Shown piece by piece: positions 2,506 through 41,892 of a stretch of 42,901 bases of DNA. Every line of letters starts with the position of its first letter. Position 1 is the first letter of the stretch. The notes under the pieces are model-generated. The model worked only from the letters and a program-made list of their open reading frames with translations. It did not search any database and had not been told where the DNA came from. The DNA is taken from the IMG/VR virus record IMGVR_UViG_3300035670_000456, positions 1-42,901 of that record; one strand, 5' to 3'. A program made the position numbers and the translations under genes. This DNA comes from a virus.

Positions 2506-4392
2506 ATGGCTAATTTAGTACCTACTCCGTCATGGGACGGGGTTTATCAAATCGAAACCACGGACCCAGTCCTAGGTGGCCCGGGCGGAGTGGCTAACAC
2601 TCCCGCGCAAAACTTGGCGAACCGGACAGAATACTTAAAAAAATACGCGGCTTTGCCTTTTATGATTGGGCAGGAATACGAAGAAAATTCCCGTGTCATG
2701 CTTGAGAACGGCGATATTGTACAATCGACGGTCTCCGGGAACACCAACGACCCGAACACAAATACGGCGGGGTGGGTAAGGAAAGGCAATTCGATCGAAG
2801 TTGAATCAATCGTCGAGATGCTAGATATTCAGAACCCCGATAATGGCATGTACATCTTTGTGAAAAGCCTCGGACTGAATTATAAATTTGACACAAGTCA
2901 GGCCGCGGTTAATAACGGTGGCACTGTGCTAAATGGGTGGGTCGCCCAAAATTTAAAATATGTAACCCCCGAAATGTTCGGGGCGGACCCAACGGGGGCG
3001 ACATCCTCACGTTTGGCGGTGAAGAACATGTTAAACAGCTTGGCAGTTGGGGGTGTATTGGAGCTAAAACCGAACGCGATATATTATAATGACGCACCGA
3101 ATGGCACCTCGGACGTGTGGGTTTTAGATAAAGATAAAACTTACATCATCGCAAACGGTGCGACCTTTAAGCGTAGGGCTACGTCCCCCGCCACGAGCGC
3201 GATTGACCACGATCTTGCGGCGTTAAAGGTCGTGGCGGATAGTGTCACGATTGGGGGAAAAATTTATTTTGATGGATCGGAAAGCTACGCCCCTATCGTT
3301 GACGGGTCGGGCAACACCCTCGCGTCGGGGGACTATGTGCGCGGGTACGCGTCCTCGCACGGACTCCATTTATTCGGCGCGGATAACTTCACGGCGAAAA
3401 CCGTTGAGTCTATTAACTCGGTTTTTAATATTTTCGCCGATGGGTGCGTCGGTTTAACTATTAAGGGTAAAGGCAAATCCTCAGGGCAAGTCTACCCCGT
3501 CACCGGAGTTGACCTTAACCTAGGCAGCGGGATTAAATTGGCGTACAGCATCGACTTCGACATTGACCTACACACCGAATACGCGGGGTACTGCGGGGTG
3601 GAAATTGAGCCGGCTTGTCGGTTCGGTAAAGTGGTTTCGGTCGCTCGACACCCATCCCACCACGGGGTCAGCTACCAAGGAGATTGTGAGGGGTCTACCG
3701 TTATGTCTATTTGCAATGACGCAAAACTAGGGGCTTCATTGCGCCTAGGTGCAGGGTCGCGACAGATCACAGGGTCTTTCAGCGCTAAAGACTGTTTTGT
3801 CGGCTTATGGGTAGAGCCGTCCGCCTCAGATAACACAACCGCCGGCGACATATCCCTTTGTGACGTAGTTGGCTCTAGTAGTGGGTGTCCCGGGGGCGGC
3901 CTGTTAATATCCAATACTCCCGCGGGGGGCCGTCTGAGAGAATCGTCCCTGCGGGTAAGGTCAAACGCAGACGGCGGGGGTCAGACACAAGCCATAACGT
4001 TGGAGAATGCGGAGGATTGCTCTTTCGATGTGGGCGTGAAAACAGCAAAACAAGCGGTCGTCGTTAATCGGGTGTATGACTCAGAGTTGCATATCGCCTA
4101 TATGTCAGCGATAACAGACGCTAACCCTATGTTTTTCACATCGGACAACACCATCGACGTATCTTTTAAACAAGGTGCGACAAGCTACGATTTAAGACGA
4201 ACAAACGGCCACATTGTTGCGAGTTCCCTAATCTCGGCAAACGCGGCGCTACCGGTCTCGACATACGACGCTTTTGATATTCGAGCGAGTCAGATAATAG
4301 CGCCTAGTCTACCTACTTCTAGCGCGGGCACCCTCTCCGGCGGACTTTGGGTCGATAGTGCTGACGGCGATAGTGTTAAACGAAAACCATAA
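2506..4392 (+). CDS. Tailspike / receptor-binding protein, 628 aa
   Basis: The N-terminal 50 residues carry the WD-VYQIE..DPVLGGPGG..N pattern common to phage tail fibre and spike anchors. Residues 60-100 include a short fold (NGDIVQS...NTAGWV) often found next in such proteins. From about residue 150 there is a phrase typical of pectate-lyase-like spikes (TPEMFGADPTGAT), then some 400 residues rich in G, V, I, D and N with the spacing of a right-handed parallel beta-helix. The C-terminus (LPTSSAGTLSGGLWVD) is a common phage spike ending. It probably binds and may depolymerise a host surface polysaccharide; no catalytic residues can be assigned by eye. It sits about 21 kb away from the tail-fibre gene at 27354, on its own after a terminator. 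SD CTGAGG lies upstream. Confidence 0.82.
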   Translation: MANLVPTPSWDGVYQIETTDPVLGGPGGVANTPAQNLANRTEYLKKYAALPFMIGQEYEENSRVMLENGDIVQSTVSGNTNDPNTNTAGWVRKGNSIEVESIVEMLDIQNPDNGMYIFVKSLGLNYKFDTSQAAVNNGGTVLNGWVAQNLKYVTPEMFGADPTGATSSRLAVKNMLNSLAVGGVLELKPNAIYYNDAPNGTSDVWVLDKDKTYIIANGATFKRRATSPATSAIDHDLAALKVVADSVTIGGKIYFDGSESYAPIVDGSGNTLASGDYVRGYASSHGLHLFGADNFTAKTVESINSVFNIFADGCVGLTIKGKGKSSGQVYPVTGVDLNLGSGIKLAYSIDFDIDLHTEYAGYCGVEIEPACRFGKVVSVARHPSHHGVSYQGDCEGSTVMSICNDAKLGASLRLGAGSRQITGSFSAKDCFVGLWVEPSASDNTTAGDISLCDVVGSSSGCPGGGLLISNTPAGGRLRESSLRVRSNADGGGQTQAITLENAEDCSFDVGVKTAKQAVVVNRVYDSELHIAYMSAITDANPMFFTSDNTIDVSFKQGATSYDLRRTNGHIVASSLISANAALPVSTYDAFDIRASQIIAPSLPTSSAGTLSGGLWVDSADGDSVKRKP

Positions 4393-7377: not shown

Positions 7378-8214
7378 ATGGAAAAACTCGTATCACGAAC
7401 CGAATTTGCTCGATTAGCGGGAGTTACACCCGGAGCCGTGACCAAGGCGGCGAAATCGTCCTTGCTCGAAGCCGTGAGCGGAAAATACATCGACGCTAAC
7501 CACGCGGCGGCGCTAAAATTCATGGAAAAAGTCGCCCGCGACAAGACCCCGCCACCGCTCCCGGGAATCGACCCGCTATACGAGGAGGCGCTAGAAATTT
7601 GCCAACAGACAGGGAAATGGGGCATAGATTTTCTAAGAGAACATTTTCGGATCGGACACCCACGGGCGATGAAGATACGAGACCAACTCAAAGCCGCAAA
7701 AGAACAATCACGGGCGGAGAAAGTTATACCCGTGGCTTTGACCGAGCCAAAGACGCCGCATGTCCGAGGGACCGCACTGCTAAAACAAAAACGAATCGCA
7801 GCAGACATCGTACCGCTTGACGAGGTCGTAATACCGGACAACATCGCCGCATTTGCGGACATGACAATTCGAGACGTAATCAAAAAATACGGAACGGCCG
7901 AACGGTTCACCGATTATCTAAAAGCGCTAAAAGAAATCGGCATCATGGCCGAGCGTGAAATAAGACTTGCAGAGATCAAAGGCCAATTGGTTAGTCGCGC
8001 TATGGTGCAGACTCAGGTCGTCGAGCAGTTCGACGAAGCGCACATGAAACTACTTCGCGACGGCTCCAAAACGATCGCGATCCAAGTCTCGGCCATGTGT
8101 GAAGCGGGCGAGTCGATCGAGGACATAGAAAAATTTATTTCGGAAAAAATAACGGACTTCATTCGTCCGGTTAAGGCAAAAATCGCTAAGGCACTCAGAC
8201 ATGATCGAGGTTGA
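7378..8214 (+). CDS. terS: Terminase small subunit with FtsK-gamma-like domain, 278 aa
   Basis: Residues 1-55 look like a Nu1-type winged helix (SRTEFARLAGVTPGAVTKAAK). Residues about 62-105 (DPLYEEALEI..TGK.GI..L...FRIG..RAMKI.DQL) closely resemble the FtsK gamma domain, the winged helix by which FtsK reads KOPS sites on bacterial chromosomes. The C-terminal half is mostly helical, as expected for oligomerisation and TerL contact. The product should recognise the packaging site and load the motor. The gene directly precedes the large subunit and overlaps it by 14 bp. The start at 7378 has no clear SD; a hairpin and a leader peptide lie immediately upstream. Confidence 0.8.
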   Translation: MEKLVSRTEFARLAGVTPGAVTKAAKSSLLEAVSGKYIDANHAAALKFMEKVARDKTPPPLPGIDPLYEEALEICQQTGKWGIDFLREHFRIGHPRAMKIRDQLKAAKEQSRAEKVIPVALTEPKTPHVRGTALLKQKRIAADIVPLDEVVIPDNIAAFADMTIRDVIKKYGTAERFTDYLKALKEIGIMAEREIRLAEIKGQLVSRAMVQTQVVEQFDEAHMKLLRDGSKTIAIQVSAMCEAGESIEDIEKFISEKITDFIRPVKAKIAKALRHDRG

Positions 8215-10186
8215 AGAAATCGGAGCGGATTGGCTTGCTAACGTGGTCGAAAACATGACGGATCACATCGAGCACATCAAGCCGTCGGACTTTAACGAAG
8301 CGCATCGGTATTTGCCCGCGTCGGTGACAAACTTGCCGGGGTATCTGCGCTACAGCGTCAATCCGTTTATGCGTGAAATCGTGGATTGTTTCGACGTCGA
8401 CTCGCCAGTCCGCGAAGTGAATCTCAAAAAGGGCGTGCAGATCACGTACTCGACCGCACTAGAATCCGGGTTTTTGTATTTCCTCGGCCACGTTAAAACT
8501 TTGCCGATCATGTATATGTCCGCGGACAAAGAACTCGCGCTCGCACGTATCGAAAATAACTTTATCCCGATGATCAACCATAGCGGCATGGCCGACTTGA
8601 TCCGCTCAAGTGACGAGGGGAACTCGCGCAAATCGGGCAAAACCAAGGATCATATCCAATTCGCCGGGGGCGGCTACCTCATTCCATTCGGCGCAAAGAA
8701 CGCGGATAAAATGCGCTCGTTCTCCATTGCGGTAATGCTCAAAGACGAGATCGACGCGTGGCCCGACGTGGTCGGAAAGGATGGAGACCCGGACGACTTG
8801 TCCGACGGTCGTTTAAAAGCGTATTGGGACAAAAGAAAAATATTTCGCGGCTCGACGCCGTTGATCAAAAGCAATTCCAAAATCGAAAAGGCCTACCAAG
8901 ACGGAGATCAGCGTCAGTATTTCGTAATGTGCAAGCATTGCGGGTTTGAGCAAGTGATTCGATGGTCGACTCCCGACGGAGCGCCGGGCGGGTTTAAATG
9001 GGACTTCGACGAGAACGGCACGCTAATAAATTCATCCGTCCGGTATTGTTGCCAAAAATGCGACGGCCCACATTACGAGCACGACAAAGCAAAATTATTC
9101 TCGCCTGAGCATGGGGCAAAATGGAAACCTACGGCGCACCCTAAAAAATCGGGCGTCAGGTCGTACCATTTGCCCGCGTTTTATAGCCCGATCGGGATGC
9201 AGCCGTGGTACGCGTGCGTCGAGTCGTATCTAGCCGGGTACGACCCAATAGAGCGCAAAGTCCGAGACATTGGAAAGTACCAAGTATTTTATAACAACAT
9301 CCTCGGCGAGCCGTTCGAGATTATGGGAGCTAAGATTCGATTCGAAAGTGTGTCGCAGCATCGACGCACCGAGTACCGAAGCGGAGAGATACCGAACCGA
9401 TATGCTACCCGTGTGGCCGGATCGCCGATTTTATTCTTGACGTGTCAGGTCGACGTACATAAATCATTCTTGGCCGTGGCAGTCATGGGATGGGCACGTG
9501 ATGCGCGTAACTTTGTGATCCAGTACACGCGGATCGAGGGCGAAGATTGTAGCGACAGCCTTGATCCATGTTGGGGCGAATTGCGTAAGGTGATCGAAGA
9601 AACCACGTTCACAGCTGACGACGGAAAAAGCTACGCAATTCTGCTCACGCTCATTGACGCCGGCTATGCACAAGATACGGTCGTCACTTTCTGCTCAGAC
9701 TACGCGAGCAATGTTTACCCGATTCTCGGACGTGACAGACCGAGCAAGTCGCAGCGCATCGTCGAGTTTGATCAGTTCGAGACAAGGCTAAAAACAATCG
9801 GCTACCGCATTACCGTGGACCACTACAAAGACCGCATCGCGCCCGTGCTACGACGAGAGTGGATCGATGATGGATCGACGCAAGGCGCGTATCATTTCAA
9901 CGCCCCCTACGACGTGACGGACGCGCAGCTAAAAGAACTGACAGTCGAGACACGACGCGAGAAACAAGACCCGAACGGCGGGACCTCTTACGCGTGGTAT
10001 AGACCGGGCAACGCACGCAATGAGCTTTGGGATTTATTATGTTATGGCCACGCCGCGGTCGAGATACTTGCGTGGACTATCTGCATCGGGCAATTCGAGC
10101 TTGAATCAATAGACTGGCCAAAATTTTGGGACTTTATCGAACATGATCAAAAATATTATATTGACGCGGACGAAAACATAGAATAA
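8201..10186 (+). CDS. terL: Terminase large subunit (lambda GpA family), 661 aa
   Basis: The length (661 aa) and sequence fit the GpA family, which pumps DNA into the prohead and cuts concatemers at cos. The ATPase part covers roughly residues 60-250 (NLKKGVQITYSTALES in the Walker A region; VMLKDEIDAWPD as Walker B with catalytic Glu). A Cys cluster (CKHCGF...CCQKCDGPH) follows at about residues 245-290, and the nuclease part lies C-terminal, with acidic residues such as LTCQVDVHKSF and LIDAGYAQD. ATG at 8201 overlaps terS. The gene's 3' end carries a promoter (10161-10189) for a short transcription unit. Confidence 0.95.
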   Translation: MIEVEEIGADWLANVVENMTDHIEHIKPSDFNEAHRYLPASVTNLPGYLRYSVNPFMREIVDCFDVDSPVREVNLKKGVQITYSTALESGFLYFLGHVKTLPIMYMSADKELALARIENNFIPMINHSGMADLIRSSDEGNSRKSGKTKDHIQFAGGGYLIPFGAKNADKMRSFSIAVMLKDEIDAWPDVVGKDGDPDDLSDGRLKAYWDKRKIFRGSTPLIKSNSKIEKAYQDGDQRQYFVMCKHCGFEQVIRWSTPDGAPGGFKWDFDENGTLINSSVRYCCQKCDGPHYEHDKAKLFSPEHGAKWKPTAHPKKSGVRSYHLPAFYSPIGMQPWYACVESYLAGYDPIERKVRDIGKYQVFYNNILGEPFEIMGAKIRFESVSQHRRTEYRSGEIPNRYATRVAGSPILFLTCQVDVHKSFLAVAVMGWARDARNFVIQYTRIEGEDCSDSLDPCWGELRKVIEETTFTADDGKSYAILLTLIDAGYAQDTVVTFCSDYASNVYPILGRDRPSKSQRIVEFDQFETRLKTIGYRITVDHYKDRIAPVLRREWIDDGSTQGAYHFNAPYDVTDAQLKELTVETRREKQDPNGGTSYAWYRPGNARNELWDLLCYGHAAVEILAWTICIGQFELESIDWPKFWDFIEHDQKYYIDADENIE

Positions 10187-10189
10187 TAT
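10161..10189 (+). promoter_or_regulatory. Promoter inside the 3' end of terL
   Basis: TTGACG (10161-10166), 17 bases ending in CATAGAA, TAATAT (10184-10189). The -10 context GAATAATATCAAAT repeats that of the promoter at 39682-39710. A strong terminator follows only about 75-95 bases downstream, so it would drive a small RNA or a strongly attenuated transcript. Confidence 0.65.
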
Positions 10190-10195
10190 CAAATC

Positions 10196-10286
10196 TTAGC
10201 CGGCGAGCCATGCTCTAGGAAAGTGAGTTTGCATTACCCGGCGCCGATTACCTCTTTCCGCCCACTTCCCCAAGTGGGTTTTTTTT
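10196..10286 (+). ncRNA. Candidate small RNA between terL and the gpW-like gene, about 90 nt
   Basis: The predicted transcript begins about seven bases after the -10 at 10184-10189 and ends at the strong terminator 10261-10286. The body can fold as a long hairpin: GCCGG (about 10200-10204) with CCGGC, enclosing ATGC with GCAT and a roughly 17-base purine-rich loop. A single-stranded linker leads to the terminator stem. No reading frame of useful length exists. It matches no RNA family I know; an antisense or host-targeting sRNA, or a packaging-related RNA, are possibilities. Confidence 0.5.
10261..10286 (+). terminator. Strong intrinsic terminator between terL and head genes
   Basis: CCCACTT (10261-10267) pairs with AAGTGGG (10272-10278) around CCCC, followed by eight T. 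A -35-like TTGACA overlaps its end (10285-10290) but I see no good -10 at the right distance, so how the head genes downstream are transcribed (read-through, antitermination or an activator) is open. Confidence 0.92.
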
Positions 10287-10322
10287 GACATACTAAAACC
10301 AATCAATCATTGGGGCGAGGAT

Positions 10323-10577
10323 ATGAGCGCACAATTTTGGGCGGAACGTCTCGAATACACAAAAAATCTAATCGTCCAGTACGAAACGGCCATACTACAG
10401 ATCGGAGAGGGCAGCGTTCAGTCGTACTCGATCAATACGGGGCAGACCACGACAAACGTGACGCGCTTCGACCTCGCTCGGCTACAGGCACAGTTGCCGG
10501 GACTTTACAACCAACTTGCCACACTTGAGGCACGCGTCAACGGATGCGGCGCCGTGATTGCACAGCCGGGGTTTTAA
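10323..10577 (+). CDS. Head-tail joining protein, gpW-like by position, 84 aa
   Basis: An 84-aa protein between the large terminase and portal genes, the position of lambda gpW. The N-terminal helix (WAERLEYTKNLIVQYETAIL), a central GS-rich beta-hairpin-like part and a C-terminal helix (RLQAQLPGLYNQLATLEARV) fit the small alpha-beta gpW-type fold. gpW plugs the portal and forms the platform for the tail in lambda. SD GCGAGG precedes the ATG. Its stop overlaps the portal start (TAATG). Assignment rests more on position than on residue matches. Confidence 0.7.
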   Translation: MSAQFWAERLEYTKNLIVQYETAILQIGEGSVQSYSINTGQTTTNVTRFDLARLQAQLPGLYNQLATLEARVNGCGAVIAQPGF

Positions 10578-12202
10578 TGAATTACAACTCGATACACATT
10601 GACTACACACCGGGCGGAGCGGTTCCGGCGGTATCGAATCAACCGCCCCGCGTATCGGTTGACGCGCTTGGACCTTACAATTCTGAAATAATTGCGGACT
10701 TCACTGGCGAGAAATTTCTCGGCGGTTTTGGTGTAACGAATATTTATCAGACGGACTACTGGACACTGCGAAAACGGTCCGCGCAATTATTCAAAGAAAA
10801 TCTTTATGCGAAAGGCTTGTTACGCCGTCTCGTAACTAACGAGATCAACACGGGATTAACGCCCGAGTCGCTACCGGACGAGAGAGTCCTAGGCGTCCCG
10901 AGTTCGGAGCTAAGCCCGTGGACAGAGCTTGTCGAGTCACGTTTCGAGCTTTGGGGGAAAGCGCCTTTTGTCTGCGATTATTTGCAAGAGTCTACGTTCG
11001 GAGAAATCCAACAGATCGCGAGGCTTGAGGCATTGATCGAGGGCGATGTGCTCGCAGTCATTCGCCAGTCGCCGCGGACCAAGGTCCCAAGTCTGCAACT
11101 AATCAACGGATCGCGCATACAAACCCCGATGGAGCAACCACGCGCGGGGAATACGATCAAACACGGCGTCGAACGCGATTCCGTTGGTCGTGTCGTAGCG
11201 TATTGGGTACAGCAAGACGATTTCACCTCGAAGCGACTCCCGGCGTATGGTGAAAAATCAGGGCGTCGGATAGCGTGGCTAGTATTTGGCACGGAGCGCC
11301 GCATTGACGACGTGCGAGGCGAACCGCTCTTGTCAGTGGTTTTACAGTCTTTGAAAGAAATCGACCGCTATCGCGATTCTGCGCAGCGTAAAGCCGTGAT
11401 TAATTCGATCTTGGCCATGTTTATCAAAAAGACCCAAGACAAACCGAGCACGCTCCCAATTCAGGGCGCGGCGGTTCGACGCGGCTCCGTATCGGTCGGG
11501 GACGCGCAGAACCCGCAGCGCAAATTTAATATGACCTCGCACATCCCGGGCGTAGTCATGGAGGAATTGCAAACAGGCGAGGAGCCGGTCGGATTTCATA
11601 GCCAAGGTACGGACGTCAATTTCCCAGTATTCGAGGCGGCGATTATCAACGCTATCGCGTGGGCGAATGAAGTTCCGCCCGAAATCCTAACGCTCGCATT
11701 TAGCAATAACTATTCGGCGTCACAGGCGGCGATCAATGAGTTTAAAATTTACTTAAATAAATTTTGGACCAAGTGGGGCGAGAATTTTTGCACCCCGATT
11801 TATATTGAGTGGCTTGTCAGTGAGGCGCTATTGGGGAACATTCAAGCCCGCGGGTTTTTGGACGCGTGGAATGACGCCTCGAAATATGATATTTTTGGAG
11901 CGTGGACCCGTGTGGACTGGTATGGCTCAATCAAACCGTCGACGGACACACTCAAGCAAGCCCGCGGCGCGCAAGTCATGGTTCAACACGGGTGGAGCAC
12001 AAACTCCCGAGAGTCGCGCATGTTGACAGGGACCAAGTTCGCGCAAAATGTGAAATGGCTTGAAAAAGAAAATGAGGCCATTGCAAAAGCCCTCCGACCA
12101 TTGTTAGAACTGGAAAGAGAGTTCGGGAAACCAATCCAAACGCTACAGGCATTAGCCAACGGCGAACTAAGGGCCACACAAGAGGGCACAGAAATTGAAT
12201 AA
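10577..12202 (+). CDS. Portal protein (lambda GpB family), 541 aa
   Basis: Length and several segments (LVTNEINTGLTPESLP, FVCDYLQESTFGEIQQIARLEALIEGDVLAVI, EVPPEILTLAFSNNYSASQAAINEFKI) fit the lambda-type portal family. The portal forms the dodecameric ring at the capsid vertex through which DNA passes. The ATG at 10577 overlaps the previous stop; an upstream in-frame start at 10544 lies inside the gpW-like gene and is unlikely. The next gene begins eight bases before this stop. Confidence 0.92.
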   Translation: MNYNSIHIDYTPGGAVPAVSNQPPRVSVDALGPYNSEIIADFTGEKFLGGFGVTNIYQTDYWTLRKRSAQLFKENLYAKGLLRRLVTNEINTGLTPESLPDERVLGVPSSELSPWTELVESRFELWGKAPFVCDYLQESTFGEIQQIARLEALIEGDVLAVIRQSPRTKVPSLQLINGSRIQTPMEQPRAGNTIKHGVERDSVGRVVAYWVQQDDFTSKRLPAYGEKSGRRIAWLVFGTERRIDDVRGEPLLSVVLQSLKEIDRYRDSAQRKAVINSILAMFIKKTQDKPSTLPIQGAAVRRGSVSVGDAQNPQRKFNMTSHIPGVVMEELQTGEEPVGFHSQGTDVNFPVFEAAIINAIAWANEVPPEILTLAFSNNYSASQAAINEFKIYLNKFWTKWGENFCTPIYIEWLVSEALLGNIQARGFLDAWNDASKYDIFGAWTRVDWYGSIKPSTDTLKQARGAQVMVQHGWSTNSRESRMLTGTKFAQNVKWLEKENEAIAKALRPLLELEREFGKPIQTLQALANGELRATQEGTEIE

Positions 12203-18839: not shown

Positions 18840-18848
18840 AAAAAACTG

Positions 18849-18868
18849 ACCCGCTTCGGCGGGTTTTT
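18849..18868 (+). terminator. UUCG-loop terminator after the head/sheath/tube operon
   Basis: ACCCGC-TTCG-GCGGGT (18849-18864) followed by TTTTT. It ends the packaging-head-sheath-tube transcript. Confidence 0.92.
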
Positions 18869-18889
18869 AAATATTTTTATTATTACTTG

Positions 18890-18918
18890 TTGACAGCTCC
18901 GTCACTATGGAATAATAT
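18890..18918 (+). promoter_or_regulatory. Conserved-spacer promoter of moron cassette 1
   Basis: TTGACA (18890-18895), 17-bp spacer with CCGTCACTATGGAA, TAATAT (18913-18918). The leader ATAGACAGGAGATATTGAT leads to the ATG at 18944. Confidence 0.88.
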
Positions 18919-18943
18919 AGCGGTATAGACAGGAGATATTGAT

Positions 18944-19108
18944 ATGACTAAGCAAGAACAAATCGCAAAATTATGGGCCGAAATGGCGATTCACAAAGCA
19001 CAGCGCGAAGCACGCCAAGAGGCAGAGGCGAAATTCGCTGAGGAGCATGACGCGCAGTGGCCGGAGTTCAAAAGAACTTACACATACAAGAAAAGCGGTG
19101 CCCTTTAA
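18944..19108 (+). CDS. Small charged helical protein, 54 aa (moron cassette 1)
   Basis: Encodes a 54-aa protein whose first 40 residues are a long, charged, alanine-rich helix (EQIAKLWAEMAIHKAQREA), followed by a basic tail ending KKSGAL. AGGAG lies eight bases upstream of the ATG. The gene has its own promoter and is followed within the same cassette by 19108-19299, whose start overlaps this stop (TAATG). No family recognised. A cassette with its own signals inside the late tail operon suggests a gene expressed early or independently, perhaps against host functions. Confidence 0.65.
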   Translation: MTKQEQIAKLWAEMAIHKAQREARQEAEAKFAEEHDAQWPEFKRTYTYKKSGAL

Positions 19109-19299
19109 TGGGTCCGCATCTTTGCATGGAGTGGGTGAAGAAGCACGGCGGAAAACAGTTCGACTACATCACAAACTTAAACGTAGTCGAGCATGTCGCC
19201 GATAAAGCTTTAGAAATTGCGACCACTGAGGAAGAAATTAAACTTTGCAAAGCCGCAAAAGACGCCGCCTTAAAACAGATACAGAGCCTACAAACTTAA
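19108..19299 (+). CDS. Small protein, 63 aa (moron cassette 1)
   Basis: ATG at 19108 overlaps the stop of the 54-aa gene, so this start is preferred to an in-frame one at 19057. The 63-aa product has two cysteines near the N-terminus (HLCMEWV) and near residue 44 (EIKLCKAAK) and two probable helices. Function unknown. The last codon abuts a terminator. Confidence 0.65.
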   Translation: MGPHLCMEWVKKHGGKQFDYITNLNVVEHVADKALEIATTEEEIKLCKAAKDAALKQIQSLQT

Positions 19300-19321
19300 C
19301 CCGCACAAAGCGGGTTTTTTT
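19299..19321 (+). terminator. Terminator of moron cassette 1
   Basis: ACCCGC-ACAAA-GCGGGT (19299-19315) followed by seven T. Nearly the same 30-bp sequence ends cassette 2. Confidence 0.92.
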
Positions 19322-19334
19322 ATTGTATTAAGTA

Positions 19335-19363
19335 TTGACAGCCCCGTCACTATGGGATAATAT
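19335..19363 (+). promoter_or_regulatory. Conserved-spacer promoter of moron cassette 2
   Basis: TTGACA (19335-19340), 17-bp spacer GCCCCGTCACTATGGGA, TAATAT (19358-19363). The leader closely resembles that of cassette 1, including AGGAGATATTGATATG. Confidence 0.88.
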
Positions 19364-19388
19364 AGCTACATAGACAGGAGATATTGAT

Positions 19389-19643
19389 ATGATGCTTAAT
19401 GGGGTCAAGATAGACACAAAAAACATTAAGGCGGCTCGGGATCACTTCATAGCGATCGCAGAAGAATGTAAAACTTTAAAGGTAAATGATCCAGAGGGGT
19501 GGGTTAAGATGCAGAATGACCACATCAGGGAATTAGAGGCGGGGGAGCTTGATCGATCGCTAATGGTTATGCAATACGCGTACTACTTACAGACGGGGGA
19601 GTCCATCCCGATACTTCCGCCTGCAACGCCCCCACAAACATAA
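19389..19643 (+). CDS. Small protein, 84 aa (moron cassette 2)
   Basis: An acidic, mainly helical 84-residue protein (AARDHFIAIAEECKTLKVNDPEGWVKMQNDHIRELE...LMVMQYAYYLQTGE) with a proline-rich C-terminus. It has its own promoter, ribosome-binding site and terminator, between the tail tube and tail chaperone genes. It resembles no family I recognise and is unlikely to be structural given the separate transcription signals. Confidence 0.65.
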   Translation: MMLNGVKIDTKNIKAARDHFIAIAEECKTLKVNDPEGWVKMQNDHIRELEAGELDRSLMVMQYAYYLQTGESIPILPPATPPQT

Positions 19644-19664
19644 CCCGCACAAAGCGGGTTTTTT
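19643..19664 (+). terminator. Terminator of moron cassette 2
   Basis: ACCCGC-ACAAA-GCGGGT (19643-19659) and a T run to 19664, then ATTGTATTA as after the first cassette. Confidence 0.92.
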
Positions 19665-19758
19665 ATTGTATTATAAAAACCAACAAGGAATTAACGCCGC
19701 GTTGGTTGCCTTGTACCTCAAAAAGCGCGGCACCCAATCTAACAAGGCAGATTGAAAA

Positions 19759-32502: not shown

Positions 32503-33071
32503 AGCCGAAGCCCTTGTATAATGAATTGTCCGAACTCGCAATCGCCCGCGACATTGCCGTCGTAATACGTTTTGCCTGGCTTGGCGAGGGCGTCATTCAA
32601 GTAGACTTGATTGATTGCGACGTCTCCGACCATGAAATAAAAAATTTCTTTTTTCTTGAGGATTTTAACGCCCGGGGTAAATTCCTTGGCGAGTTTCATA
32701 TTCTCGCGTTTTGGTATGACTCGCTTGTATTGCGGATACTTTGCGTCAACGTCAACCCGTAGCCGCGTTTTCGGGCAGTAGTATCCGTTTGATAGGTCGG
32801 TCTCGCCGATGTGCATACGGTGCCCATTCGTGGCCACGATTTCGCCGTTCTCGACGTACACGTAGCGGAGGTACGTCCGAACGTCCCGATCGTCAGCGAC
32901 CGCTTTAGCGACCCAATCAAAAACGTCTTTAGGTTTCTTTGGCACGGACGGGGCGAAATAGTTTATCAGCGCGTCAAGTGTGTAGGTGTCAAGTTCGGCG
33001 CCGTTTTTATTCGCTAAAAGCTTCGTAAAAACTTGGGTCCGGCTAAACTTGTCTGAGTGTGTCAATATCAT
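32499..33071 (-). CDS. Small sliding-clamp-like protein (beta-clamp fragment fold), 190 aa
   Basis: The middle of the protein has LRYVYVENGEIVATNGHRMHI, a close match in spacing to the ATDGHRL loop of bacterial beta clamps, and then YPQYKRVIP, matching the FPDYRRVIP block. Near the C-terminus NQVYLNDAL recalls YLLDAL of the third clamp domain. At 190 aa it is half the size of DnaN (about 370 aa), so it has fewer clamp domains and would need to form a multimer, or it is only a polymerase accessory factor. It is translationally coupled to the polymerase. I hold the family call as likely but unproven. Confidence 0.6.
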   Translation of the reverse strand: MILTHSDKFSRTQVFTKLLANKNGAELDTYTLDALINYFAPSVPKKPKDVFDWVAKAVADDRDVRTYLRYVYVENGEIVATNGHRMHIGETDLSNGYYCPKTRLRVDVDAKYPQYKRVIPKRENMKLAKEFTPGVKILKKKEIFYFMVGDVAINQVYLNDALAKPGKTYYDGNVAGDCEFGQFIIQGLRL

Positions 33072-33724
33072 TTCGGCAGCCCTATCAATTTGTTAAGTGT
33101 GTCCGTTTGCAATGCGATTGGCATCGGTTGCGAAGCGGCGCTAACTTCTTTCGGGATTAACGTGGCGCACTCGGGCCAGTGCTCGACAAGTTTCTCAACC
33201 GTGGCAAAACTATCGACAGCGGCTTGAACGGTATTGCGCAAGATTTTGGTCTGCTCTATCAAATCCTCGGCATCGCTTATGATCGATCGAAACTCTTGTG
33301 TAAACTCGTGGTCGGACGGGTACTCCATGTGCACGGGGGAGTAGAATTTTTTAGAAAATACGTATCCGTCAGGCGAGACCACTATGTCACGACTACGATT
33401 TTTAGAATAAATCGCCCCACTAAAATATATGGGGCGGCTCTCCTCGCCCAATTTAACGTAGACGTCGCTACTTCGATTAAATATGGAGCTCGGGATAAAA
33501 TTCTCAGGGATGCCGCGGCGTTTTAATAGTTCGGAAAACTCTTTTTCGACTACTGCAAGATTAGTGTCTAGGTCCCCCGCATTAAAAGCGGCAAGCCCAT
33601 CGAGTCGGATATTTTCAGCCAGTGCCATGCTTCGAGCTGTCAAGGCTTTTTTAGCTTCGGGAATTGGTGACGCCTTGTATGCGTTTTCTACGATCTTGGT
33701 GCGAAGTTCTTTATTGAGTCTCAT
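33068..33724 (-). CDS. Nmad5-like putative nucleotide-modification protein, 218 aa
   Basis: The N-terminus MRLNKELRTKIVENAYKAS and the C-terminal pattern VDSFATVEKLVEHWPECATLIP ... LNKLIGLP match what I remember of Nmad5 proteins, a family predicted by genome context to be linked to base modification in phage DNA. The biochemical activity of that family is not established. The middle is poorly conserved. It overlaps the clamp-like gene by four bases. A hairpin lies between it and the gene before. Confidence 0.5.
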   Translation of the reverse strand: MRLNKELRTKIVENAYKASPIPEAKKALTARSMALAENIRLDGLAAFNAGDLDTNLAVVEKEFSELLKRRGIPENFIPSSIFNRSSDVYVKLGEESRPIYFSGAIYSKNRSRDIVVSPDGYVFSKKFYSPVHMEYPSDHEFTQEFRSIISDAEDLIEQTKILRNTVQAAVDSFATVEKLVEHWPECATLIPKEVSAASQPMPIALQTDTLNKLIGLPK

Positions 33725-40040: not shown

Positions 40041-41398
40041 TGAGATATGGATCAGTGTGCAGCGGTATCGAAGCCGCTAGCGTGGCTTGGCACCCCCTAG
40101 GATGGACGCCCGCGTGGTTCGCCGAAATCGAGGCATTCCCGAGCGCGGTACTGGCGCACCATTTCCCCCACGTTATTAATGTTGGGGACATGCTCAATTT
40201 ACCGTACCTCATTCGCAACGGTTTTGTTGAAGCGCCCGATATAATCGTGGGCGGAACTCCGTGCCAAGCGTTTAGCGTTGCGGGGGCGCGTCAATCATTG
40301 GGCGACGATCGAGGGAAATTAACGCTTGCATTTTTAGAAATTATTGAAGCTATAGACGAGGTCAGATTAAAAGATGGAAAACAACCAGTCATCATCGTAT
40401 GGGAAAATGTCCCCGGCGTCCTCGGCACGATCGACAACGCGTTCGGCTGCTTTTTGGGCGGACTATGTGGGTCGGGGGATGCCCTACAGCCTACAGGGCG
40501 AAAATGGGGCAACAATGGTTATATCGTTGGACCAAAAAGACAAGCGGCTTATCGAGTTCTCGACGCCCAATTTTTCGGAGTGGCCCAACGACGCCGACGT
40601 GTGTTTGTTGTCTCAAGTGCTCGAAACGGGTTCGATCCATCCTCGATACTATTTGAGTTCGACGGCGTGCGCCGGGATTCTCCGCCGAGCCGAGAAACGC
40701 GGGAAAACATTGCCCCATACGTTGGAGTTAGCCTTGAGACGTCAAGCCGATTTTATGATAGACAACGAAGTGACGAATGGGGCACTCAAGAAATAGCGAG
40801 CACTATTGCTCGCCGAGATTACAAAAGCTTTACCGACTTAATTGAGGTTGTCCACGGTACACAAGACCCTCTAACCCAATCGGAGCGGGCGTTCCCTTTG
40901 GGTCGAAACAGCGGTCAAGAAAACGCGGTTTTTGCCATCCAAGGCAGCATGATTGGGCGCAATGACAACGCGGGGCCGCAAGGGTCGGGCATTAGTGAGG
41001 ACGTGAGCTTTACATTAACGCGAGGAGATCGTCACGCCGTCGGTGTGAATATAACGTTCTGTGACGCGAACGGGACACGTAAGGATCGCCCAAACGGCGG
41101 TCTTTATATATCACAGACAGACACCGCGAACACGGTAACGACGTCGGGGACGGATACTAAATTATTAAGCTCCGCCGTTCGCAGATTCACACCTAAAGAA
41201 TGCGAGCGTTTACAAGGTTTTCCGGACGATTGGACAAAAATCCCTTATCGTGGCAAAGACGCTGAAAATTGTCCCGATGGCCCACGGTATGCGGCTTGCG
41301 GCAATTCAATGGCGGTGCCAGTGATGCACTGGATTGGAAAGCGTATTGACGCACTCGTCAACATAGAATATCATGCGGGCAGAGGTGTCTATTTATGA
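40040..41398 (+). CDS. DNA cytosine-5 methyltransferase, 452 aa
   Basis: The ATG at 40040 overlaps the previous stop. Motif I YGSVCSGIEAA lies at residues 3-13; the catalytic motif IV GGTPCQAFSVAG has its Cys near residue 75; motif VI WENVPG is near 120 and motif VIII QRRRRVFVV near 182. A variable target-recognition part follows, then motifs IX/X (LQGFPDDW, YAACGNSMAVP) near 390-425. It methylates C5 of cytosine, probably to shield phage DNA from host restriction; the target site cannot be read. No partner restriction gene is seen. A second frame is open across residues about 112-252. Confidence 0.93.
   Translation: MRYGSVCSGIEAASVAWHPLGWTPAWFAEIEAFPSAVLAHHFPHVINVGDMLNLPYLIRNGFVEAPDIIVGGTPCQAFSVAGARQSLGDDRGKLTLAFLEIIEAIDEVRLKDGKQPVIIVWENVPGVLGTIDNAFGCFLGGLCGSGDALQPTGRKWGNNGYIVGPKRQAAYRVLDAQFFGVAQRRRRVFVVSSARNGFDPSSILFEFDGVRRDSPPSRETRENIAPYVGVSLETSSRFYDRQRSDEWGTQEIASTIARRDYKSFTDLIEVVHGTQDPLTQSERAFPLGRNSGQENAVFAIQGSMIGRNDNAGPQGSGISEDVSFTLTRGDRHAVGVNITFCDANGTRKDRPNGGLYISQTDTANTVTTSGTDTKLLSSAVRRFTPKECERLQGFPDDWTKIPYRGKDAENCPDGPRYAACGNSMAVPVMHWIGKRIDALVNIEYHAGRGVYL
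40374..40796 (+). CDS. ORF nested in the methyltransferase gene in the +1 frame (up to 140 aa)
   Basis: The frame runs 140 codons fully inside the methyltransferase. Its best part (about residues 65-115: NFSEWPNDADVCLLSQVLETG, then HPRYYLSSTACAGILRRAEKRGKTLP) matches a motif I recall from separately annotated phage and prophage proteins of unknown function. A random shadow would not show this. A likelier start than 40374 is ATG at 40512 (94 aa), preceded by GGGG. Motif VIII of the methyltransferase is encoded by the same bases in the other frame. Function unknown. Confidence 0.5.
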   Translation: MENNQSSSYGKMSPASSARSTTRSAAFWADYVGRGMPYSLQGENGATMVISLDQKDKRLIEFSTPNFSEWPNDADVCLLSQVLETGSIHPRYYLSSTACAGILRRAEKRGKTLPHTLELALRRQADFMIDNEVTNGALKK

Positions 41399-41892
41399 CT
41401 AAAGATGAAGCGTTAAAAGCGGGTGTGAAACTCGCTTCAAAAATCGGGCTTATCAATGTGAGCCGTCAAAATTTGTGTGAGTCGATGGGCATTCCGTTCG
41501 GCTCATGGACCAACGTGGTCGGGTGCTCGTTCACTGATTTTTATAACGAGTTAAAAACTCTCGTCGATTCAAATGATACGCTTGCGATCACTAAGAAACG
41601 TGTCGACCCGGAGTTACGCAAAGACCACATTTTGAACGCCGCTATCGAAGTGGCCAAAAATACCCCGTTCAATAAAATGTCGCGCATCCAAGTGGCCGAG
41701 GAGGCGGGCGTATCTGAGGGCCTCGTCTCTAAACATTTCGGGACAATGGAGCAGTTACGCGGCGATGTGGTGCGTCGAGCGATTAAAAACGAGGTGCTCG
41801 TCATTATCGCCCACGCTATTGCGTCGGGTCATCGCCACGCTAAGAAATTGGACGCGGAGCTAAAGGAGAGAGCGCTAAAATGTTTGATATAG
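41395..41892 (+). CDS. Putative regulator with two TetR-type HTH units, 165 aa
   Basis: Residues about 5-55 (EALKAGVKLASKIGLINVSRQNLCESMGIP) and 78-125 (HILNAAIEVAKNTPFNKMSRIQVAEEAGVSEGLVSKHFG) both follow the TetR N-terminal helix-turn-helix pattern; the second is the clearer one. The ligand-binding domain of TetR proteins is missing. It is the only evident DNA-binding regulator in the genome. It may control the conserved-spacer promoters; this is inference. It overlaps the methyltransferase stop (ATGA). Confidence 0.65.
   Translation: MTKDEALKAGVKLASKIGLINVSRQNLCESMGIPFGSWTNVVGCSFTDFYNELKTLVDSNDTLAITKKRVDPELRKDHILNAAIEVAKNTPFNKMSRIQVAEEAGVSEGLVSKHFGTMEQLRGDVVRRAIKNEVLVIIAHAIASGHRHAKKLDAELKERALKCLI

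Follow-up and report, generated by a model that had tools for sequence, protein, structure and literature searches.

A moron is reportedly defined, following the work on HK97 and HK022, by the possession of its own promoter and its own terminator. Short phage transcripts that carry no gene are also on record. StxS of an Stx phage is a stable sRNA that arises as a by-product of the antitermination control of a late promoter (PMC7873438), while PreS of lambda and VpdS are expressed, Hfq-dependent phage sRNAs that act in trans and have targets (PMC12197685). Morons themselves are accessory loci, one of them described with its own promoter (PMC7067206).

A locus that shares features with each of these systems lies in the virus record IMGVR_UViG_3300035670_000456, the whole 42,901 nt of which were analysed and are called here the window. 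The genes concerned all lie on the + strand, in the order terS-position gene, terL, gpW-like gene and portal gene, and a gap of 136 bp separates terL from gpW. The features are the following.

7378-8214, + strand: gene in the terS position, upstream of terL
8201-10186, + strand: terL, terminase large subunit (PF05876, E 8e-44; PF20454, E 1e-37)
10161-10189, + strand: sigma70-type promoter TTGACG-N17-TAATAT over the terL stop, probably a diverged class member, without the TGAC-N6-GTCA dyad
10196-10259, + strand: non-coding body of a putative RNA of about 95 nt, its predicted start lying near 10196
10260-10286, + strand: strong intrinsic terminator (8-bp stem, CCCC loop, T tract), homologous to that of phage Scuro
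10286-10294, + strand: TGACATACT, extended -10-like counterpart of the gpW promoter of the family (TGnTATACT), 28 bp before gpW
10323-10577, + strand: gpW-like head-tail adaptor, which opens the portal/head unit (phrog_118, E 9.5e-8)
10544-12202, + strand: portal protein gene (PF05136, E 3e-54)

The terS-position protein (7378-8211) also matches PF09397, the FtsK gamma domain that orients DNA translocases (E 3.7e-8).

As in a moron, a promoter and a terminator flank a short stretch that separates two core genes, and at precisely this junction relatives (L063, L109 and others) have coding insertions. Unlike a moron, the unit holds no gene, its longest sense ORF (10223-10288, GTG start) being of 21 codons, so that the first-pass annotation was right in seeing no useful ORF between promoter and terminator; the promoter, moreover, overlaps the stop codon of terL. 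With the lambda pR'-tR' leader (6S RNA) and StxS the locus shares a short terminated transcript placed before late genes; it departs from them in having a gpW promoter motif behind the terminator and a body that is not conserved, and no Q-like protein was seen among the window proteins scanned. The likeness to PreS and VpdS is that of a non-coding transcript from a phage genome, predicted in the window with a U-rich terminator; expression, Hfq dependence and targets are documented for those two, whereas the window RNA is a prediction from sequence.

The DNA features themselves are real, and the explanation most likely to account for them is an ordinary one. We hold it probable, though well short of assured, that the stretch between terL and gpW is the border between two transcription units, with a gene-less cassette at its promoter. 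Transcription arriving from terS-terL, like any that begins at the terL stop, would end at the hairpin; the gpW-portal-head unit would restart from the family gpW promoter, with TGACATACT as its -10; and the promoter over the terL stop would belong to a cassette without a gene, either a remnant or a minimal form.

The terminator, with the eight T announced for it by the first-pass annotation, is indeed present downstream of the promoter: a hairpin GCCCACTT-CCCC-AAGTGGGT occupies 10260-10279 and is followed by a T tract that runs through 10286, and it thus stands as an intrinsic terminator 3' of the last gene of its unit. A loose scan gave no excess of terminators over shuffles. With a strict rule (stem of at least 7, at least 6 T in 8), the window genome holds six against 1.25 in shuffles, and 10260-10286 is among the six. 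How efficiently it stops transcription, and how active each of the promoters discussed here is, we infer from the letters. It had been argued that a terminator would be harmful in the middle of a late operon; this finds no support, as the gpW gene of the relatives has a promoter directly upstream. Searches with TerL, portal and profiles gathered about 120 loci, with about 80 distinct terL-gpW junctions, none of them closer than 71% in TerL; a viral scan with gpW alone returned no match. Where the junction gap measures 15-130 bp, a promoter score of at least 8 is reached in 89% of cases, whereas control windows nearby reach it in 9-11% and shuffled versions of that DNA in 29%, a contrast that is large even though the relatives are not independent and the p-values are therefore overstated. 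A promoter lies within 85 bp of gpW in 67 of 78 junctions, typically as TGnTATACT, and it is found there also when genes have been inserted (L005, L007, L019, L049, L070, L074, L077, L101, L109). Most relatives have this promoter and no terminator.

In the window, TGACATACT follows directly on the T tract of the terminator, and with the family matrix a share of 0.00045 of the genome positions scores as high. It stands 28 bp from gpW, against 31 bp for the corresponding site in Scuro and a family median of 33; of the two sites, the TATACT of Scuro is the clearer. Its -10 reads CATACT and lacks a good -35, and its generic matrix score is 6.7, so that the gpW promoter of the window may have little activity or none; of the promoters near gpW, the one that scores best with the generic matrix is that at 10161, upstream of the terminator. 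The low generic score also leaves room for partial readthrough, or for antitermination.

The terL-gpW gap is a hotspot of gene insertion: more than a dozen of the loci carry ORFs there, on one strand or the other. Related ORFs of 82-88 aa (LLLELTRIDS...GIKQQNFNR) are inserted between terL and gpW at 2072-2441 in L009 and 2916-3284 in L070, and L009 repeats a near-copy of the end of terL and the promoter after its insert. In L063 a full-dyad promoter sits precisely on the terL stop and is followed by ORFs and by a terminator 61 bp short of gpW; in L109 the order is ORFs, terminator, strong promoter, gpW. Such inserted genes, above all those of L063 with a promoter at the same spot and a terminator, make a gene-less cassette the most likely reading of the window junction, and the simplest history would be that of a cassette site which now has no gene or never had one. 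In L052 the gap (2978-3095) combines a promoter with two GC-rich hairpins and a TTTTCT upstream of gpW, and this may be a weak leader of the attenuator type.

Among the roughly 80 relatives, the whole layout is common only to Acinetobacter phage Scuro, where TTGACA-N17-TAAAGT covers the terL stop in the identical position and is followed by a stretch of 300 nt without plausible sense ORF, a terminator, TATACT and gpW. The terminator and the segment behind it are homologous in the two phages (p<0.001), and the stem shows two compensatory changes, from CCCACTT/AAGTGGG in the window to CCCGCTA/TAGCGGG in Scuro. The transcripts predicted from promoter to terminator are of unrelated sequence, about 95 nt in the window and about 300 nt in Scuro, and their bodies show no homology (p 0.13-0.49; 229th of 650 genome windows). 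An apparent alignment running through the body was rejected once taken piecewise, only the terminator and post-terminator part being significant. When the 300-nt region of Scuro was searched in phages and plasmids, it found itself and short matches around the terminator only, and the intergenic DNA of the window, searched directly in phages, gave at best a match of 26 bp (E 0.5). Conservation, proposed as a check of the RNA, has thus a divided outcome: promoter and terminator are kept in one relative, the RNA is not. As the nearest TerL relative found is at 71%, the history of the body cannot be traced.

The first-pass annotation saw here a dedicated regulatory sRNA gene, giving from 10161 an RNA of about 95 nt with a U-rich 3' end that would act on phage or host mRNAs. 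The short promoter-terminator unit is plausible: it would have its own class promoter, no ORF and a strong intrinsic terminator with a U run suitable for Hfq, and its layout recurs in Scuro. The body is where this reading fails, being neither conserved nor folded beyond chance. Its predicted free energy (10196-10258) is -14.1 kcal/mol, against -14.6 kcal/mol in shuffles (z +0.2). The longer segment 10196-10287 reaches a minimum of -25.1 kcal/mol (z about -1.3 to -1.5), an excess that is due to the terminator, the body alone having z about 0. In the helices that had been put forward as a foldable body, the outer GCCGG/CCGGC pairs with a predicted probability of 0.74-0.87 and the inner ATGC/GCAT with less than 0.5. 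Rfam scans of the window and the relatives matched no family, apart from weak terminator-like hits, and a duplex scan of the body against the phage's own start regions found pairing no better than with shuffles, so that target prediction, on the phage side, brings nothing in favour of a regulator. The unit is, in addition, absent from the great majority of the relatives. Neither the sequence nor the structure of the putative RNA looks selected, as far as its letters tell, and the RNA may be a by-product, its lack of function being what we infer. A functional sRNA is possible, and we consider it unlikely; a terminator that forms a border before a conserved gpW promoter is the simpler explanation.

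It is also conceivable that the promoter at 10161 is an accident of the C-terminal codons of terL, and the hairpin the plain terminator of a terS-terL operon. The promoter is present at 10161-10189 as first described, TTGACG-N17-TAATAT, with the TAA stop of terL within its -10 box. Its score with the sigma70 matrix is 11.8, a value reached by 11 start positions on the + strand, and synonymous re-codings of the terL tail yield a promoter that scores as well in 20% of cases in the window and 10% in Scuro; in L105 a terminator immediately adjoins the terL stop, and neither an extra unit nor a promoter module is present. An accident is nevertheless improbable in view of the identical placement of the promoter in the window, Scuro and L063, of the Scuro copy, identical at 24 of 29 positions to another Scuro promoter, of the full dyad of the L063 copy, and of a 14-nt block, GAATAATATCAAAT, which in the window genome occurs only in the promoters at 10161 and 39682. 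An exact scan of viral contigs for the 29-bp promoter gave no match. The terL-stop promoter is thus probably real, even though a fifth of the tail re-codings score as well.

The 39682 promoter belongs to a class whose hallmark is a dyad, TGAC-N6-GTCA, laid over the -35 and the spacer. TTGAC-N6-GTCA followed by a -10 is found 8 times in the window, 5 times in Scuro and twice in SppYZU01, where 0.1-0.5 would be expected, and it is the spacing of six that stands out. The members in the window are as follows.

5412, - strand: class promoter heading a cassette
18890, + strand: class promoter heading a cassette
19335, + strand: class promoter heading a cassette
29730, - strand: class promoter
34803, - strand: class promoter
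36990, - strand: class promoter heading an early operon
39682, + strand: class promoter containing GAATAATATCAAAT
41346, + strand: class promoter heading the gene of a TetR_N-domain protein (41395-41892)

Two complete cassettes, with promoter, RBS, ORF and terminator, lie at 18890-19316 and 19335-19660, and their presence in this genome speaks for the cassette reading of the terL-gpW junction. They stand in tandem at 18848-19670, behind the tail tube gene; each has small ORFs, and the two have in common their promoter, their leader and RBS (ATAGACAGGAGATATTGATATG) and an identical terminator, AACCCGCACAAAGCGGGTT. The promoter at 10161 had been called one of the phage's own type. It has TTGAC and GAATAATATCAAAT in common with 39682, and ranks 9th of 85,746 positions with the matrix of the class, but its second half-site is missing (GAAA, not GTCA), as it is in Scuro; we may take it as probably a diverged member of the early/moron promoter class of the phage.

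In Scuro as in the window, class promoters head an early operon (26265 in Scuro) and the TetR_N-domain gene (21974 in Scuro); the TetR gene of SppYZU01 has merely an imperfect site upstream. An extension of the class to phage PD0307 was rejected, this more distant phage having a TetR gene and no such sites. The TetR-like phage protein has until now been presented as an auxiliary gene related to resistance (PMC10132091). The placement of the sites suggests that the TetR_N protein would be an autoregulated repressor of early and moron genes, not a resistance gene, and it is possibly this protein that controls the TGAC-N6-GTCA operator-promoters, the link being one of correlation only. Elsewhere in the window, an Nmad5 domain (nucleotide-modification-associated; 33068-33724, - strand; PF18757, E 4.7e-36) hints at modified phage DNA.

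The absence of the second half-site from the terL-stop promoter in both phages might mean that this promoter has escaped the operator by which the other early promoters of the phage are marked. It would then make a short RNA independently of the repressor; the unit would be a non-coding moron with the role of an sRNA, and its terminator would keep early transcription out of the late head operon. We judge this quite unlikely. That the gpW/head operon starts at 10161 and a phage antiterminator carries it past the hairpin, as at lambda pR'-tR', is very unlikely: the order of promoter, short leader, terminator and late genes in the window and Scuro would fit, as would the best generic promoter lying upstream of the hairpin, but both phages have a family-type promoter site behind the terminator, most relatives have the promoter without a terminator, and the subset of proteins scanned contained no antiterminator-like protein.

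With a border between transcription units as the preferred reading, the late region of this phage may be reread: packaging and head genes look as if they were started separately, with an insertion hotspot between them, and this hotspot marks the point at which phages of this group take up extra genes. Should the short RNA turn out to be functional, the terL-gpW site would hold a non-coding cassette. As for the operator-promoter class, it would give the TetR-like phage protein a regulon that can be tested.
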